The position numbers and the translations under genes are program-made. DNA of 64,000 nucleotides, from positions 1-64,000 of the forward strand of contig DXJG01000010.1 in the NCBI GenBank assembly GCA_019056805.1, written 5' to 3'. The stretch is from Candidatus Baldrarchaeota archaeon (GTDB lineage Archaea > Asgardarchaeota > Baldrarchaeia > Baldrarchaeales > DXJG01). Under the pieces are notes generated by a model, which was given only the letters and a program-made list of their open reading frames with translations, was not told the DNA's origin and searched no databases. Below, in pieces: positions 26,738-33,467 of this stretch (positions are counted from its first letter, which is position 1; each line of letters opens with the position of its first letter).

Positions 26738-26949
26738 TAAACACCTAATTTTCTACACTTTAATTTAAAACGCATATTTTTCACGATCGATCTCAAAAGT
26801 TTCAGAGTAACATCATCACATTTTTTCTCTAAGTATTTCAAATTTTGTTATTGTTTTGTGGGCTAGTTTCGATTTGGCGGGCTTGACGGTATTATCAGCG
26901 TATATTTTTTGAGTATCTTTAAAAGTAGACAAAGAACATAGTGTTAATT

Positions 26950-28290
26950 ATGCCTCGATTCTTAGATTTGTTTCTTCATGAAATTCGTCAAACAAAAGAC
27001 AAAATAAAAAACCTCCTACTAATATCAAAAGATAAACTTCAACTATATGAAAATCTCCTCCCAAAATACTGGAACCCTTTACAAATCGCCCAGGAGTTTC
27101 ATGGCGAGGTTTTCGCAGTAGATGGCAGCGATGGCGTCATCGAATATAGAGACGGAGTAATTATTCATGTCTGTCGAGCCCTAGGCCTATCAAATACGCA
27201 CAAAGAATGTAGAGAACTAAAAATAAACGTATTCTACGGTCCTAGGAAAAGAAATGACCTTATAACTTTTAGAAGTAGAATGAGAGAACACATAGAACAC
27301 CTAGTAGCCCTAAAGTGCCTAAACAACTACCATGAGAACTCAAATAGTCGCATACTACTTTTAGATGGATCTCTCTACGGCAGAATAGCCCACTTACCCA
27401 AAGACTCCGAAATACCTGGATATCAAGCATTTATGCTAAAATACATAGAAACCTATACAAATCTTCTCGAAAAATCCGAAGAAAAACATATACCAATAAT
27501 AGGAATAAGCAAAGACTCGAGATCAAGAATCCTAACAAGAATCCTACTAACCCACAAACTAAAAAACTACCTTACACATAACCCACTAAACCCTGAAATC
27601 AAAGAAACAATAATATCAAGCTGGGGAGAAATCTGGAAAAGACCAAGAAATGCGCTAAGAAAAATGGAAAAACTCTCCAAACAAATTCCAATACCCTCCG
27701 AAATCCGAGAAATTTTCAAAGAAGCTTTAACATCAAGACCAGACATCCAAATCATAACCTCTCTCATAAAAGAACCAGGATACACAACTCCACTTATCTT
27801 AGGAATACCAACACCTGTTCTCGATCCGTTAATTTATGCTTTTGAAGGAGGAACAATAGAAACCTACATTGAAAATAATTTTTCTAAAGCTTTAGTTGAA
27901 CAAGGAGAAGAACTCTTCAACTGGGCGAAAAAAGTCTTACCAAAGATTTTTGAGTACCCTGCAATTTTCATGTTCTATTATATTTCTGGGAAAAATGAGA
28001 TACCTCTACGTATAGATGTTCCCAGCTGGATGCTTGGACACAACTACACTATAAACGATGTAACAAGTTATGAAGCTTCTTGTTCTCAAGAAAAATTAGA
28101 ATGGATATTAAACATGCTAAATAGTTTTTATGCTGGACCAAAACACTACAACGTTTTATTGGAAGAAGTTGATGCAAAAGTTAAACTCAAACAAAAAGAT
28201 CTCACAACCATTTATGAATCCACCTTAATGAAAGAACTAAAAATGATAATAGAACACACGAGGGATGTAAGACGTGTCAAATACCCATAA
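26950..28290 (+). CDS. nurA: NurA nuclease of the HerA-Mre11-Rad50 repair cluster
   Basis: About 446 residues. NurA is a 5'-3' nuclease that works inside the HerA ring to resect DNA ends. The two metal-site motifs are visible: FAVDGSDGVIEYRDG near the N terminus and ILLLDGSLYGRI, followed by KDSRSR. A C-terminal FEYPAIFMFYYISGK and the RIDVPSW motif also match. The protein is longer than many NurA proteins. Start ATG 26950 or GTG 26941; a TATA-like TTTAAAAG is about 30 bases upstream. Its end overlaps herA by 17 bases, showing an operon. Confidence 0.9.
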   Translation: MPRFLDLFLHEIRQTKDKIKNLLLISKDKLQLYENLLPKYWNPLQIAQEFHGEVFAVDGSDGVIEYRDGVIIHVCRALGLSNTHKECRELKINVFYGPRKRNDLITFRSRMREHIEHLVALKCLNNYHENSNSRILLLDGSLYGRIAHLPKDSEIPGYQAFMLKYIETYTNLLEKSEEKHIPIIGISKDSRSRILTRILLTHKLKNYLTHNPLNPEIKETIISSWGEIWKRPRNALRKMEKLSKQIPIPSEIREIFKEALTSRPDIQIITSLIKEPGYTTPLILGIPTPVLDPLIYAFEGGTIETYIENNFSKALVEQGEELFNWAKKVLPKIFEYPAIFMFYYISGKNEIPLRIDVPSWMLGHNYTINDVTSYEASCSQEKLEWILNMLNSFYAGPKHYNVLLEEVDAKVKLKQKDLTTIYESTLMKELKMIIEHTRDVRRVKYP

Positions 28291-29905
28291 CCCTAAACTC
28301 ATCGGAAGAATAGTAGGCGAAGCATCCCCAACAGAATTCCTATTCGTAGCAGACAAAGAAAACCACCCACCAAAATACGAATACGTCATAGTACACTCAA
28401 AAGAAGACGTAAACGGCACCATACAACAAGTACAAGTACTAGCACAAGTAACAGGAGTAATATCAAAAAGCATTTCCTACAATAAGGACCTAGACTTCGA
28501 AGCCTTAGAAAGAATGTTCCACGCAGGAATAGAAGACATCAACGTAATCTGCCAAGCAAGAACCCTAGGCTACATGGCAGAAATCAACGGAAAACGAGAA
28601 ATCCTAATACCAAGAAGAGCAATATACCCAGGCAACGAAGTATACCTAGCTCCAGATAAACTAGTACAAGAATTCTTCTCATATCCTGAAGAAGAAGGAC
28701 TACACATAGGCTACCTAATATCAAGAGCCACAATACCCGTCCACATATCACTAAACGGCTTCAAAAGACACCTAGCCATACTAGCACAAACAGGAGCAGG
28801 AAAATCATACACCGTAGGCGTACTAGTAGAAGAACTCTTAGCGAAAGGAGCCACCATCATAATAATCGATCCTCATGCAGACTACGTTTTCCTAAGCAGA
28901 AAACCCGACGGAACAAGATACGAGTATGCAAACAGAATAAAAATATTCAGAAACCCCAGCAGCACAGGAAGATACTCCAAAGAGGAACTAGACAATGTGT
29001 ACGACTACACAATAAAATTTTCCGACCTAACAGACGAAGAAATATGTGAAATCCTAGAAATACCTGAAAAATGGACAAATATCAAAGCAATAATATCAGA
29101 AGCCCTCAACCAACTAAAAACCGAAGAAAACAAAGAATACACATACCAAGACCTCATAAACAAACTACAAGAAATAGCTCAAAGCGACGACAAAAAGAAA
29201 GCACTCCACGCCTACAACGCCCTAAAATACGTCAAAAAACTCGAAAAACTAAAGGTTTTTGGAGACAAAACCACACCAATAGAAGAAATGTTAAAACCAG
29301 CTCAACTATCAGTCATAGACCTCTCAGGTCTAAACGATGCAAGCATGGACTACATAACCTACCGTATCCTAAACAGCTGCTACAACGAAGTATCAAACGG
29401 AAACTTCCAATACCCAATCTTTGCCATAATAGAGGAAGCCCACAAATTCATACCCAGAAAAAGAGAAAGAAGAAGAATGTCCAGAGAAATAATAAACGTA
29501 ATCGCAGCAGAGGGAAGAAAATTCGGAATATTCATGACCCTAATAAGCCAAAGACCATCAAAAGTAGACCCAGACGCCCTAAGCCAATGCAACAGCCAAA
29601 TAATACTCCGCGTATCAAACCCCATCGACCAAAGAGCAATAATAGAATCAAGCGAAAGACTAAGCGAATCCCTACTCAGAGACCTCCCAGGCTTAAACGT
29701 AGGAGAAGCAGTAATAGTAGGTGAAATATCAAAAGTACCAGTAATGGTCAAAATCAGAAATAGACGTACAAAAGAAGGCGGAGCAGACATAGACATACTA
29801 ACAAAACTCAAACAAGCAAGAGAAGAAACAAAAATCCTACAAGAAATAAAAGAAACCCGAGAAAAAACCATTACACGAGAAAACACAATGCTCTCAGAGG
29901 TCTGA
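28274..29905 (+). CDS. herA: HerA DNA translocase ATPase
   Basis: 543 residues. HerA is a hexameric FtsK/HerA-family pump that couples with NurA in end resection. An N-terminal HAS-barrel (NPKLIGRIVGEASPTEF) is followed by the Walker A ILAQTGAGKSYTVG (Lys177), Walker B-like IFAIIEEAHKFIP, the GRKFGIFMTLISQRPS sensor segment, and the arginine-finger region SNPIDQRAIIESSE. It starts with GTG inside the end of nurA and stops two bases before mre11. Its + strand is rich in C and A, as in the rest of this cluster. Confidence 0.95.
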   Translation: MSNTHNPKLIGRIVGEASPTEFLFVADKENHPPKYEYVIVHSKEDVNGTIQQVQVLAQVTGVISKSISYNKDLDFEALERMFHAGIEDINVICQARTLGYMAEINGKREILIPRRAIYPGNEVYLAPDKLVQEFFSYPEEEGLHIGYLISRATIPVHISLNGFKRHLAILAQTGAGKSYTVGVLVEELLAKGATIIIIDPHADYVFLSRKPDGTRYEYANRIKIFRNPSSTGRYSKEELDNVYDYTIKFSDLTDEEICEILEIPEKWTNIKAIISEALNQLKTEENKEYTYQDLINKLQEIAQSDDKKKALHAYNALKYVKKLEKLKVFGDKTTPIEEMLKPAQLSVIDLSGLNDASMDYITYRILNSCYNEVSNGNFQYPIFAIIEEAHKFIPRKRERRRMSREIINVIAAEGRKFGIFMTLISQRPSKVDPDALSQCNSQIILRVSNPIDQRAIIESSERLSESLLRDLPGLNVGEAVIVGEISKVPVMVKIRNRRTKEGGADIDILTKLKQAREETKILQEIKETREKTITRENTMLSEV

Positions 29906-29907
29906 AA

Positions 29908-31080
29908 ATGACGATGTCAACAATAAAAATCTTACACACAGCGGACAACCACCTAGACCCAACTCTAACCATGTACAGACACAAAATAAACGAAAGAAGA
30001 AAAGACTTCTGGAATACATTCAAATACCTCCTAAACTACGCAGATCAAAGAAAACCAGATCTATTTCTAATATCAGGAGACCTATACGACAAAGTTAACC
30101 CCAGAAACCCACCGAGAACACAAATCCTAAAATATTTCAGGCATCTGCACAACAAAGGAATAAAAATCTTCCTAATAGGAGGACACCACGACACTCCACG
30201 CTCAATTGAGGAAGGAGCTTCGCCTCTAGACGAACTCGCCGCCTCAGGATACGTAACATACCTCCCAGGAATAAACAAACCAGCCGTACAACACGTAAAA
30301 ATAAAAGACCTAGACATCTGCATATCCGGCCTAACCTACAACTTCAACCTAAACCCGGGAGAAGACCCCTTAGAAAAAACAAAACCGAAAACAGAAGGCG
30401 ACATCAACATACTAATGCTACACTACACAATACAAGGATTCACACCAACCTATATGACAAACGAACCAACAGTAAAAACCTCAAACATACCAAACGAAAT
30501 AAACTACGTAGCAGCAGGACATCTACACGAACACAAAGAAAAACAACGAGGAAAAACCCTCATTGCATACCCTGGAAGCACAGAAAGAAGAAGTTTCCTA
30601 GAAGAAAAAACAGAGAAAAAAGGCTTCCTATGGATAGAACTAAACCAAGAAAAAACAGTAAACAAAGAATTTATCGAAGTACCTACGAGACCAATGAAAA
30701 CCCTAACCTACAAAATCACACCAAACACAAAAAACCCAACAACAGAAATAATCACCTACGCCTTCCAACATAAAAACCCAGAACTAATTTTAAGACTACA
30801 AATAACAGGAAAAGTACCCCTAAACATCCTAACACAATACCAAAGAAACGAAATACTAAGAAAACTCCTCGACCACTTCTTCTACATAGTAATAGACGAC
30901 AGAGACCTCATATACAAGGCAGAGAAATTCGAAACAATAGAAAGGTTAACGCCTCTCAAAGCCTTCACAGACTACATGAACCAACTAATACAAAAAGAAA
31001 AAGACCCCCAACGAAAAAGAATACTCGAACTAGCAAAAGAAATAGGCATAGAAAAACTTGAAGAGGCAGGAGCATGGTAG
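29908..31080 (+). CDS. mre11: Mre11 nuclease
   Basis: 390 residues. The Mre11 phosphoesterase motifs are ILHTADNHLD (D-x-H), FLISGDLYDK, IGGHHDTPRS, ILMLHYTIQG and VAAGHLHEHK. Motif III is G91-G92-H93-H94-D95, so the asparagine of the standard GNHD motif is replaced by histidine. The GHxH motif and the others are intact. Mre11 with Rad50 processes DNA double-strand ends using Mn2+. The start ATG follows AGAGGT with normal spacing; the end overlaps the rad50 start by seven bases (ATGGTAG). Confidence 0.93.
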   Translation: MTMSTIKILHTADNHLDPTLTMYRHKINERRKDFWNTFKYLLNYADQRKPDLFLISGDLYDKVNPRNPPRTQILKYFRHLHNKGIKIFLIGGHHDTPRSIEEGASPLDELAASGYVTYLPGINKPAVQHVKIKDLDICISGLTYNFNLNPGEDPLEKTKPKTEGDINILMLHYTIQGFTPTYMTNEPTVKTSNIPNEINYVAAGHLHEHKEKQRGKTLIAYPGSTERRSFLEEKTEKKGFLWIELNQEKTVNKEFIEVPTRPMKTLTYKITPNTKNPTTEIITYAFQHKNPELILRLQITGKVPLNILTQYQRNEILRKLLDHFFYIVIDDRDLIYKAEKFETIERLTPLKAFTDYMNQLIQKEKDPQRKRILELAKEIGIEKLEEAGAW

Positions 31081-33467
31081 TCTTAAACCGTCTAGAAGCT
31101 CAAAACTTCAGAAAACTAAACCTAACACTAGACTTCCCAGAAGGAATGCTAATAATAAAAGGACCAAATGAAGCGGGAAAATCAACAATCCTAGAAGCAA
31201 TACTTTATGCCCTATTCGGAAAACTAATGCGAGGAACAAAAGAACTAGCCATAAACCACCAATCAAACATCGCAAAAATAAAACTAACATTCACAATAAA
31301 CAACCAACAATACCTAGTCCAAAGAATCATAAAAAGAAACGGAACACAAGCAAAAATCTGGAAAATAACCCCAAACGGACTAGAACCACAAGCATTAACA
31401 ATACAAGAAACAAACAAATTCATAAAAGACCTACTGGGAGGCCTATCCTTCAACGAAATCCTAGTAACAAACATAGTAGCACAAAAAGAACTAAACAAAC
31501 TCACAGAACTAAAAGGACAAAACAGAGAAAAAATAATAAACGCCCTTCTAGGCCTCGACAGCTACAACAAAGCAATAGAAAAAATAACAGAAGACAGAAG
31601 AAACAAAAAACACGAACTAGAAACAAAAACAGAAAAACTTAACCAAATAACCAAAAGACTAGAAGCATATAGAAGAGATGTAGAAGATCTGAAAAGTAAG
31701 CAACAAAAACTAAAAGAAAACCAAGAAAAACTCGAAAAGAAAACCAAAGAATTTGAAGAAAAACATCCCGTATATCTCAAACTAAAAGAATATAGAGAAG
31801 CTCTAAACAAAAAACGCCAATTAGAAGCTGAACTAAAAGGAATAGAAAACATGATAAAACAACTTCAACAAAACCTACAAAACCTAGAAAAACAAACAAC
31901 AGAAAAACAACAAACACTTAACAAAACAAAAGAAATACTGACACAACAAAACGAACAACTCAACAAAGAAAAACTAAAATTAGAAGAATACAAAAACTTG
32001 GAAAAAACAGAAGAAATACTGATAAAAGTAGAAAGGAGATTTAGAGATCTTCAAGAACTGGGAAATAGGAAAAGAGAAATTTTATATCAATTAGAAGGGC
32101 TAAATGAAGATCTAAGAAAACTAAAAGAAAAACTTGAATCAAAAGAAACTAAAGAAACCTTAAGAAAAGAAAAAGAATTAAAAGAAAAACTTGGAAAAAC
32201 AAAAATATCACCCCTAATACTCATCCTCCTACTTTTACCATCACTCCTAGCCATATTATCACCCCTACTCATCACAATAGGACCTGTAGCTGTAATTCTC
32301 TACATTTTCTATATTACAAGAACTAGGAATTCTTTTCAACAAGAATTGATCCAAATAAAAGACAAAGTAATAGAACTAAAGGGTCTACCCGCCCTAATCC
32401 AACAAAACGAAAAACAAATACATGAAATAAAGCAAAACATAGCAATCATGGAAAAACAAGAAGAAAGCCTAAAACAAGAAATAAAAACAGTCCTACTTAA
32501 CTTAGAAGAAAAATATAAGCCGAAAACATGGACTAACCTCGAAGAACTATTACAAAAAACTAAAGAAAACTTAAGACAACTACAAAAAGAAAAAATAGCA
32601 ACAGAAACAAAAATAACCATACTAACGAACAAGATCCAAATGCTAAAAACTCAAATCGAAGAACTAGAAAATGGTATTGAAAAACTAAAGGAAAAAAGAG
32701 AAGAAACAACAAAAAGTATAGAAGAAAAGAACAACGAACGGTTAGAAATTCAACAACAATTAGATTCAATAAATCTACCAAAATTACCGGGAGACATTCA
32801 ATACAGCGAAGAACTATTTGAGAAAACAGAGCAAGAAATTACAGATCTTAAAGGAGAAATAAATACTCTAAAAGGTATCATCGAAGAGCTTCAAAGAAAT
32901 ATCGGGGAGCTTAAGAGAAGAGTAGAAGAGAATAAAAGCGTAGAGCAAGAATATAAGCAAGCAAAACAAGAAGTAGAAGAACTTGAAACACTTATTGAAG
33001 CACAAACAACAGCAATAGAAAAATTGAAAGAAACAGCAAGAAGCATGCGAGAAAAATTTTTGCCAGCGATAGAAACAAACATGAGCCAAATAATCTCCCA
33101 AATAACAGGAGGAACCTATAAAGCAGTAAGACTAGACGAAAACTACAACATCGAAGTCCTAGACTCTAACGCAGGAAAATTCATACCAAAAGACATATAC
33201 AGCGGAGGAACCGTAGACCAGTTTCTCCTAGCAATGAGACTAGCCTTCATACTATCCCTACTACCACAAACAAAACAAACATACCCCCGATTCCTATTCC
33301 TAGACGAACCCCTAGCATCATCAGACCAAAACAGAAGAAACAACATAATAAACCTACTAACAAAAACACTAAGCGAAGAATTCAAACAAATAATACTAAT
33401 AACACACCTAAACATAAACCCACCAAACACAAAAACAATAACAATAAACCAAGGAAAAACAGCTTGA
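31074..33467 (+). CDS. rad50: Rad50-like SMC ATPase with a hydrophobic membrane hairpin in place of the zinc hook
   Basis: 797 residues. The N-terminal half-ATPase has Walker A KGPNEAGKST (residues 29-38); the C-terminal half has the signature IYSGGTVDQFLLAMRLAF (near 709) and Walker B FLFLDEP (743-746). Between are two long Lys/Glu/Gln-rich coiled coils. At the apex, where Rad50 proteins carry the CxxC zinc hook, residues 378-414 are ISPLILILLLLPSLLAIL followed by SPLLITIGPVAVILYIFYI, with flanking charged residues. The whole protein contains no cysteine. This predicts a two-helix membrane hairpin, the same idea as in bacterial YhaN. The gene is last in the nurA-herA-mre11 operon, so it should be the Mre11 partner. 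Confidence 0.93.
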   Translation: MVVLNRLEAQNFRKLNLTLDFPEGMLIIKGPNEAGKSTILEAILYALFGKLMRGTKELAINHQSNIAKIKLTFTINNQQYLVQRIIKRNGTQAKIWKITPNGLEPQALTIQETNKFIKDLLGGLSFNEILVTNIVAQKELNKLTELKGQNREKIINALLGLDSYNKAIEKITEDRRNKKHELETKTEKLNQITKRLEAYRRDVEDLKSKQQKLKENQEKLEKKTKEFEEKHPVYLKLKEYREALNKKRQLEAELKGIENMIKQLQQNLQNLEKQTTEKQQTLNKTKEILTQQNEQLNKEKLKLEEYKNLEKTEEILIKVERRFRDLQELGNRKREILYQLEGLNEDLRKLKEKLESKETKETLRKEKELKEKLGKTKISPLILILLLLPSLLAILSPLLITIGPVAVILYIFYITRTRNSFQQELIQIKDKVIELKGLPALIQQNEKQIHEIKQNIAIMEKQEESLKQEIKTVLLNLEEKYKPKTWTNLEELLQKTKENLRQLQKEKIATETKITILTNKIQMLKTQIEELENGIEKLKEKREETTKSIEEKNNERLEIQQQLDSINLPKLPGDIQYSEELFEKTEQEITDLKGEINTLKGIIEELQRNIGELKRRVEENKSVEQEYKQAKQEVEELETLIEAQTTAIEKLKETARSMREKFLPAIETNMSQIISQITGGTYKAVRLDENYNIEVLDSNAGKFIPKDIYSGGTVDQFLLAMRLAFILSLLPQTKQTYPRFLFLDEPLASSDQNRRNNIINLLTKTLSEEFKQIILITHLNINPPNTKTITINQGKTA

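Follow-up and report, generated by a model that had tools for sequence, protein, structure and literature searches.

A Rad50-type ATPase encoded in the window (the whole 64,000-nucleotide stretch analysed here, from a Candidatus Baldrarchaeota archaeon) carries a predicted two-helix membrane hairpin at the apex of its coiled coil, where other Rad50 proteins carry the CxxC zinc hook. Judged from sequence, the protein belongs to a new variant: archaeal Rad50 that is linked to HerA and NurA, lacks the hook and ends in a putative membrane hairpin, no other Rad50 having been found in some of the genomes. The comparative sequence analysis confirmed that the hydrophobic apex noted in a preliminary description of this DNA is real and conserved, and that it is distributed more widely than that description knew.

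The gene cluster and the apex of its Rad50

Four adjacent genes on the forward strand, nurA, herA, mre11 and rad50, lie in the arrangement of the Mre11-Rad50-HerA-NurA end-resection cluster. The first, nurA (26941..28290; start codon uncertain), encodes a NurA nuclease (Pfam PF09376, 9.6e-19) and overlaps by 17 bases herA (28274..29905), the product of which is a HerA helicase/translocase matching PF01935 (HerA/DUF87) at 1.4e-46 and NF040819 at 6.2e-69. The Mre11 nuclease gene (29908..31080; 390 aa) matches PF00149 (Metallophos) at 6.2e-14, and in a sequence search its product was matched by Mre11 crystal structures, down to 1.4e-21. The catalytic motifs of Mre11 are present, with motif III reading GHHD (residues 92-95) rather than GNHD. 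This N-to-H change, at a metal-ligand position, also occurs in G002, G177, G008 and locus L078, and is absent from Hermodarchaeota and from L081. The rad50 gene (31074..33467; 797 aa) begins within the last 7 bases of mre11, the overlap being as first described.

The ABC head of the window Rad50 is complete. Walker A (GPNEAGKST, residues 30-38, 31161..31187) and Walker B (FLFLDEP, residues 740-746, 33291..33311) are recognised from the sequence and kept in the family alignment, and the ABC signature SGGTVDQFLLAMRLAF (residues 710-725, 33201..33248) has the GTxDQ form (SGGTVDQ), whereas hook Rad50 has SGGE. The protein matches the Rad50 structure 3aux by sequence at 3.7e-24, and its fold matches are 7zr1 and 3auy. 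Its best Pfam match is AAA_27 (PF13514), which scored 37.7 bits where the cut-off is 22; this match was weaker, at 21-26 bits, in three relatives scanned.

As the preliminary description stated, the chain is free of cysteine over all 797 residues; a CxxC hook is thus absent, and the Pfam scan gave no match to the zinc hook family PF04423. The longest run without D, E, K, R, N, Q or H covers 38 residues (378-415; codons 32205..32318) and is centred on the midpoint of the protein, so that the hydrophobic middle seen earlier is real, its end falling at 415 instead of 414. The next longest uncharged run in the protein has 9 residues, and the longest in 2000 shuffled sequences had 19. The maximal 19-residue Kyte-Doolittle mean, 2.79, was reached by 5 of 5000 shuffles. 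Basic residues flank the run (K375/K377 and R416/R418) and lie outside it only.

A scan of apparent insertion energy, on a re-implemented scale that gave -1.8 for the glycophorin A control, resolved the segment previously placed at 378-414 into two short predicted membrane helices, at residues 376-395 (32199..32258; apparent dG -1.2) and 398-418 (32265..32327; apparent dG -1.0). Between them is a two-residue Ser-Pro turn (residues 396-397, 32259..32264) at the site of CxxC in hook Rad50s, where relatives have N/P turns. Membrane hairpins as a class have tight turns of Asn or Pro and keep their basic residues on the cytoplasmic side. The window apex resembles such proteins in its tight turn between hydrophobic helices and in its basic flanks; it differs from the general class in forming the tip of an SMC-like ATPase. 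The preliminary description had proposed structure prediction of an Mre11-Rad50 dimer; AlphaFold models of Rad50, full-length and as a segment, did not resolve the apex: the full-length model had a pLDDT of about 40-47 over residues 371-400, and the segment model drew a single continuous helix through the apex with a pTM of 0.28. By every sequence criterion available the apex behaves as a membrane hairpin, and we regard the interpretation given in the preliminary description as partly supported.

Hairpin relatives among archaea

Of 228 genomes from the window's own phylum (Asgard), 14 carry a close hairpin relative, and the hairpin module occurs in 19 of 300 Thermoproteota genomes, including that of the cultured Thermofilum pendens Hrk 5. 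The order nurA-herA-mre11-rad50 was seen in 11 of the 12 Thermoproteota clusters examined, the twelfth ending at a contig edge, and also in Asgard, Bathyarchaeota and Hermodarchaeota loci; within the main archaeal clade it is kept wherever the contig shows it. The preliminary description had suggested a search for archaeal Rad50 proteins that adjoin herA and nurA, lack CxxC and have a hydrophobic apex, and the search was productive. CxxC was missing from every one of the 34 archaeal relatives whose apex is complete, and each gave a helix pair joined by a turn of 0-4 residues in the dG scan (four further rows of the scan table were fragments lacking the apex, or had it outside the scanned middle). 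The turns are usually N, P, NP or SP and never contain K or R, and the flanks are basic. In the same scan the apex of 12 hook Rad50s reached a dG no better than +4 kcal/mol, with nothing resembling a hairpin, and hook and hairpin never occurred together in one archaeal protein. Because the relatives keep the hairpin, we rejected a sequencing or frame artefact as its source.

The columns of the hairpin show 21% identity and 4% charged residues, and the coiled-coil arms 40-43% charged residues. Low charge maintained at such low identity is as expected for helices that face lipid, and it bears on a second interpretation, namely that two hairpins meet face to face in a four-helix bundle, a soluble dimerisation knob that stands in for the hook with no part played by the membrane. 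The zinc hook is regarded as a constitutive point of dimerisation that ranks among the best-conserved features of Rad50 (PMC6969161). In yeast, the hook of Rad50 and the hinge of SMC proteins can replace one another as dimerisation modules (PMC6969161), which makes a protein-protein module at the apex plausible; the AlphaFold models, for their part, leave the apex undecided. We nevertheless find a soluble knob improbable, since both helices have a favourable or near-zero insertion energy in nearly all relatives and are flanked by basic residues, and since a specific interface should have conserved side chains and polar edges rather than hydrophobicity alone.

The length of the hairpin raises a different question, that of how far it enters the bilayer. 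The window hairpin is short, at 38 residues, or two crossings of about 18 residues and a turn, so that partial insertion is conceivable. Archaeal tetraether membranes are thick, and prolines stand at residues 380, 389, 397 and 404; the hairpin might then dip into one leaflet as a re-entrant or monotopic anchor and make of the protein a peripheral membrane sensor. In many relatives, however, the hydrophobic stretch runs to 42-47 residues, long enough to cross the membrane fully twice, and we therefore hold a re-entrant anchor to be rather unlikely, the preferred reading being a hairpin that spans the membrane.

Larger and more distant hairpin Rad50s, with open frames of 912-1093 aa, were noticed in other families of the window's phylum (L170 in G118, L171 in G101 and L173 in G046); two of these three loci have an adjacent Mre11, their neighbourhoods having been covered in part. 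In two genomes of the Hermodarchaeota family (f10), two conserved open reading frames follow hairpin rad50 directly (L039, 2382-4231; L040, 2290-4235), coding for a protein of about 450-470 aa and one of about 150-160 aa with a hydrophobic segment.

Hook-type systems and a proposed membrane-anchored complex

Searching the 1.92-Mb genome that contains the window with PF13476 identified a second Rad50, on contig C17, of 704 aa, with a CPTC hook and a match to PF04423. Its gene follows those for an Mre11 of 470 aa and a divergent HerA of 601 aa. The preliminary description had allowed that a second, CxxC-bearing rad50 serving Mre11 in the same genome would count against its reading, and this is such a gene. 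Because of the CPTC-hook pair, the hairpin form must be regarded in this genome as an additional system and not as a general replacement. The argument that the window gene lies in an otherwise standard cluster and is therefore no unrelated paralogue overlooked this second pair (L001/L043); and the proposal of a membrane-anchored Rad50, favoured by a dG of about -1, N/P turns, basic flanks and conservation, has to accommodate a hook Rad50 with its own Mre11. Both of the same-genus genomes carry the two kinds of Mre11-Rad50 pair. The hook cluster (L043, G000:C17:165000-184000) lies near genes that by eye resemble those for E1-, E2- and RING-type ubiquitin proteins, and a 443-aa open reading frame without a Pfam match occupies the nurA position.

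Elsewhere the hairpin pair appears to stand alone. Neither a hook-Rad50 alignment nor PF04423 detected a hook Rad50 in G229, in G008, which is 94% complete, or in seven genomes of Hermodarchaeota with a completeness of 74-85%. Absence from an incomplete genome is weaker evidence than absence from one that consists of a single large contig, as does that of T. pendens. With an Mre11 profile, just one Mre11 was found in each of T. pendens, G008, G011, G089, G090, G091, G229, G305, G386 and G398. The only Mre11 found lies in the hairpin cluster in G008, in most of the Hermodarchaeota relatives, in T. pendens and in three further genomes; in T. pendens and most Hermodarchaeota relatives the hairpin pair is the only Mre11-Rad50 found. 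In G026 the profile gave a second match, within an open frame of 35 residues that lies next to herA where a contig ends; this match probably represents the beginning of that same mre11 gene. A genome from the genus of G026, G019, has the hook form of Rad50 and lacks the hairpin.

Rad50-like ATPases of about 800 aa with CxxC and without an adjacent Mre11 match occur at Thermofilum-type loci (L295-L299, L301, L303, L310 and L322). Those of T. pendens and G305 were considered as second hook Rad50s and rejected, because an adjacent Mre11 match is absent and the best NCBIfam match is arcadin-4. At Thorarchaeota-like loci (L178-L185, family f4) a short Rad50-like ATPase, mostly of 428-456 aa, stands beside an Mre11-like protein of about 365 aa; these ATPases have neither a CxxC hook nor a hydrophobic apex and almost no coiled coil, and group with hook Rad50s.

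The explanation that we favour, and consider probable from the sequence comparisons, is that the window encodes a membrane-anchored Mre11-Rad50-HerA-NurA end-resection complex, in which an apical hairpin replaces the hook while the heads and Mre11 are cytoplasmic. In such a complex, antiparallel coiled-coil arms would end in the two-helix hairpin instead of a zinc hook. The hairpin would keep the apex embedded in the cytoplasmic membrane; the heads and Mre11 could sit up to about 30 nm away in the cytoplasm, the length estimated for arms of about 200 residues. By analogy with other Rad50s, the ABC heads, working with the co-encoded Mre11, would bind DNA ends and open them, and HerA-NurA would extend the resection. 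The coupling provided by the hook might be replaced by packing of at least two hairpins within the membrane, by simple tethering, or by both. For the genome of the window, the best reading is that the hairpin complex acts beside the second, hook-type Mre11-Rad50. We advance more tentatively, as a serious possibility, the broader proposal that in several archaeal lineages, Thermofilum among them, the sole Mre11-Rad50-HerA-NurA system is anchored in the membrane, so that resection would take place at the cytoplasmic membrane with the bilayer doing the work of the hook. If this is true, a clade that exchanged hook for hairpin would link archaeal break repair to the membrane and provide an experiment of nature on the purpose of the hook. 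The question can be addressed directly in T. pendens, which is cultured and has one copy.

Bacterial counterparts and ancestry

The hairpin itself is not new, being general in bacterial pairs of the YhaN/SbcE type; the preliminary description had already pointed to membrane segments at the apex of YhaN. In bacterial YhaN/SbcE-YhaO, as in the window, genes for an Mre11-like and a Rad50-like protein stand side by side, CxxC is absent from the apex, a hydrophobic two-helix segment interrupts the coiled coil, and the head is of AAA_27 type with a GT-x-[DE]-Q signature. The apical hairpin was also present in Bacillales members (L119 and L138). Unlike the archaeal hairpin clusters, the YhaN/SbcE loci that we fetched had no herA or nurA match beside them. 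The zinc-hook Rad50 of the Sulfolobus/Pyrococcus type, conversely, has the head fold, the Mre11 partner and the HerA-NurA cluster in common with the window protein, but carries CxxC and SGGE where the latter has the hydrophobic hairpin and the GTxDQ form, and the window protein falls into a clade separate from the archaeal hook Rad50s sampled. What appears to be new is the joining of the hairpin to HerA-NurA in place of the hook. A limited literature search found no paper on a membrane-anchored Rad50 and no publication describing the YhaN-type hairpin. SbcE/YhaN, for which the archaeal proteins would provide a counterpart, has been little studied; the title of Krishnamurthy 2010, as given in PMC4205851 and PMC3896406, reports a role for it in repairing double-strand breaks, and it has been tied to competence by a title cited in PMC4205851.

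The Rad50 tree was built from the heads, leaving out apex and arms, and is unrooted, so that gain and loss are indistinguishable in it. Thirty-one archaeal hairpin Rad50s formed one clade (96/87), separate from the hook Rad50s, which formed another (100/99) that included three short Thorarchaeia-type proteins. Four sequences from Ktedonobacteria and Rubrobacter adjoined the archaeal hairpin Rad50s (95/78), and most bacterial YhaN-type proteins were split from the archaeal sequences (100/100). The Ktedonobacteria/Rubrobacter loci (L084-L087) hold Mre11-Rad50 pairs with a hairpin apex, and no herA or nurA match was found in the fetched flanks. The HerAs of hairpin clusters likewise formed one clade (99), away from the hook-linked HerA and from paralogues, several of which are long branches. 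In both trees the window sequence grouped with Thermoproteota. So did that of G008, its neighbours including G251 and G369. These placements suggest that the module has been transferred as a whole from one phylum to another.

One could envision from this pattern that the module is a membrane-tethered nuclease directed at foreign DNA, in defence or in the handling of imported DNA, and not at chromosomal breaks. Its patchy distribution and the mixing of Asgard and Thermoproteota in the trees suggest module transfer, it is a second system beside the hook cluster in the window genome, HerA relatives occur in anti-phage systems, and the competence link of SbcE/YhaN would fit as well. Yet PADLOC gave no specific match to a Lamassu or HerA-type anti-phage component: its LmuB model is generic, matching the hook Rad50 of the window's genome (6.5e-34) as it does the hairpin Rad50 (6.6e-35), and it had no match for NurA or Mre11. 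The hairpin was present in 0 of 38 viral relatives checked. We therefore think a role confined to foreign DNA unlikely and keep to end resection as the preferred reading; as the only Mre11-Rad50 found in T. pendens and others, the hairpin pair probably does the housekeeping job there.
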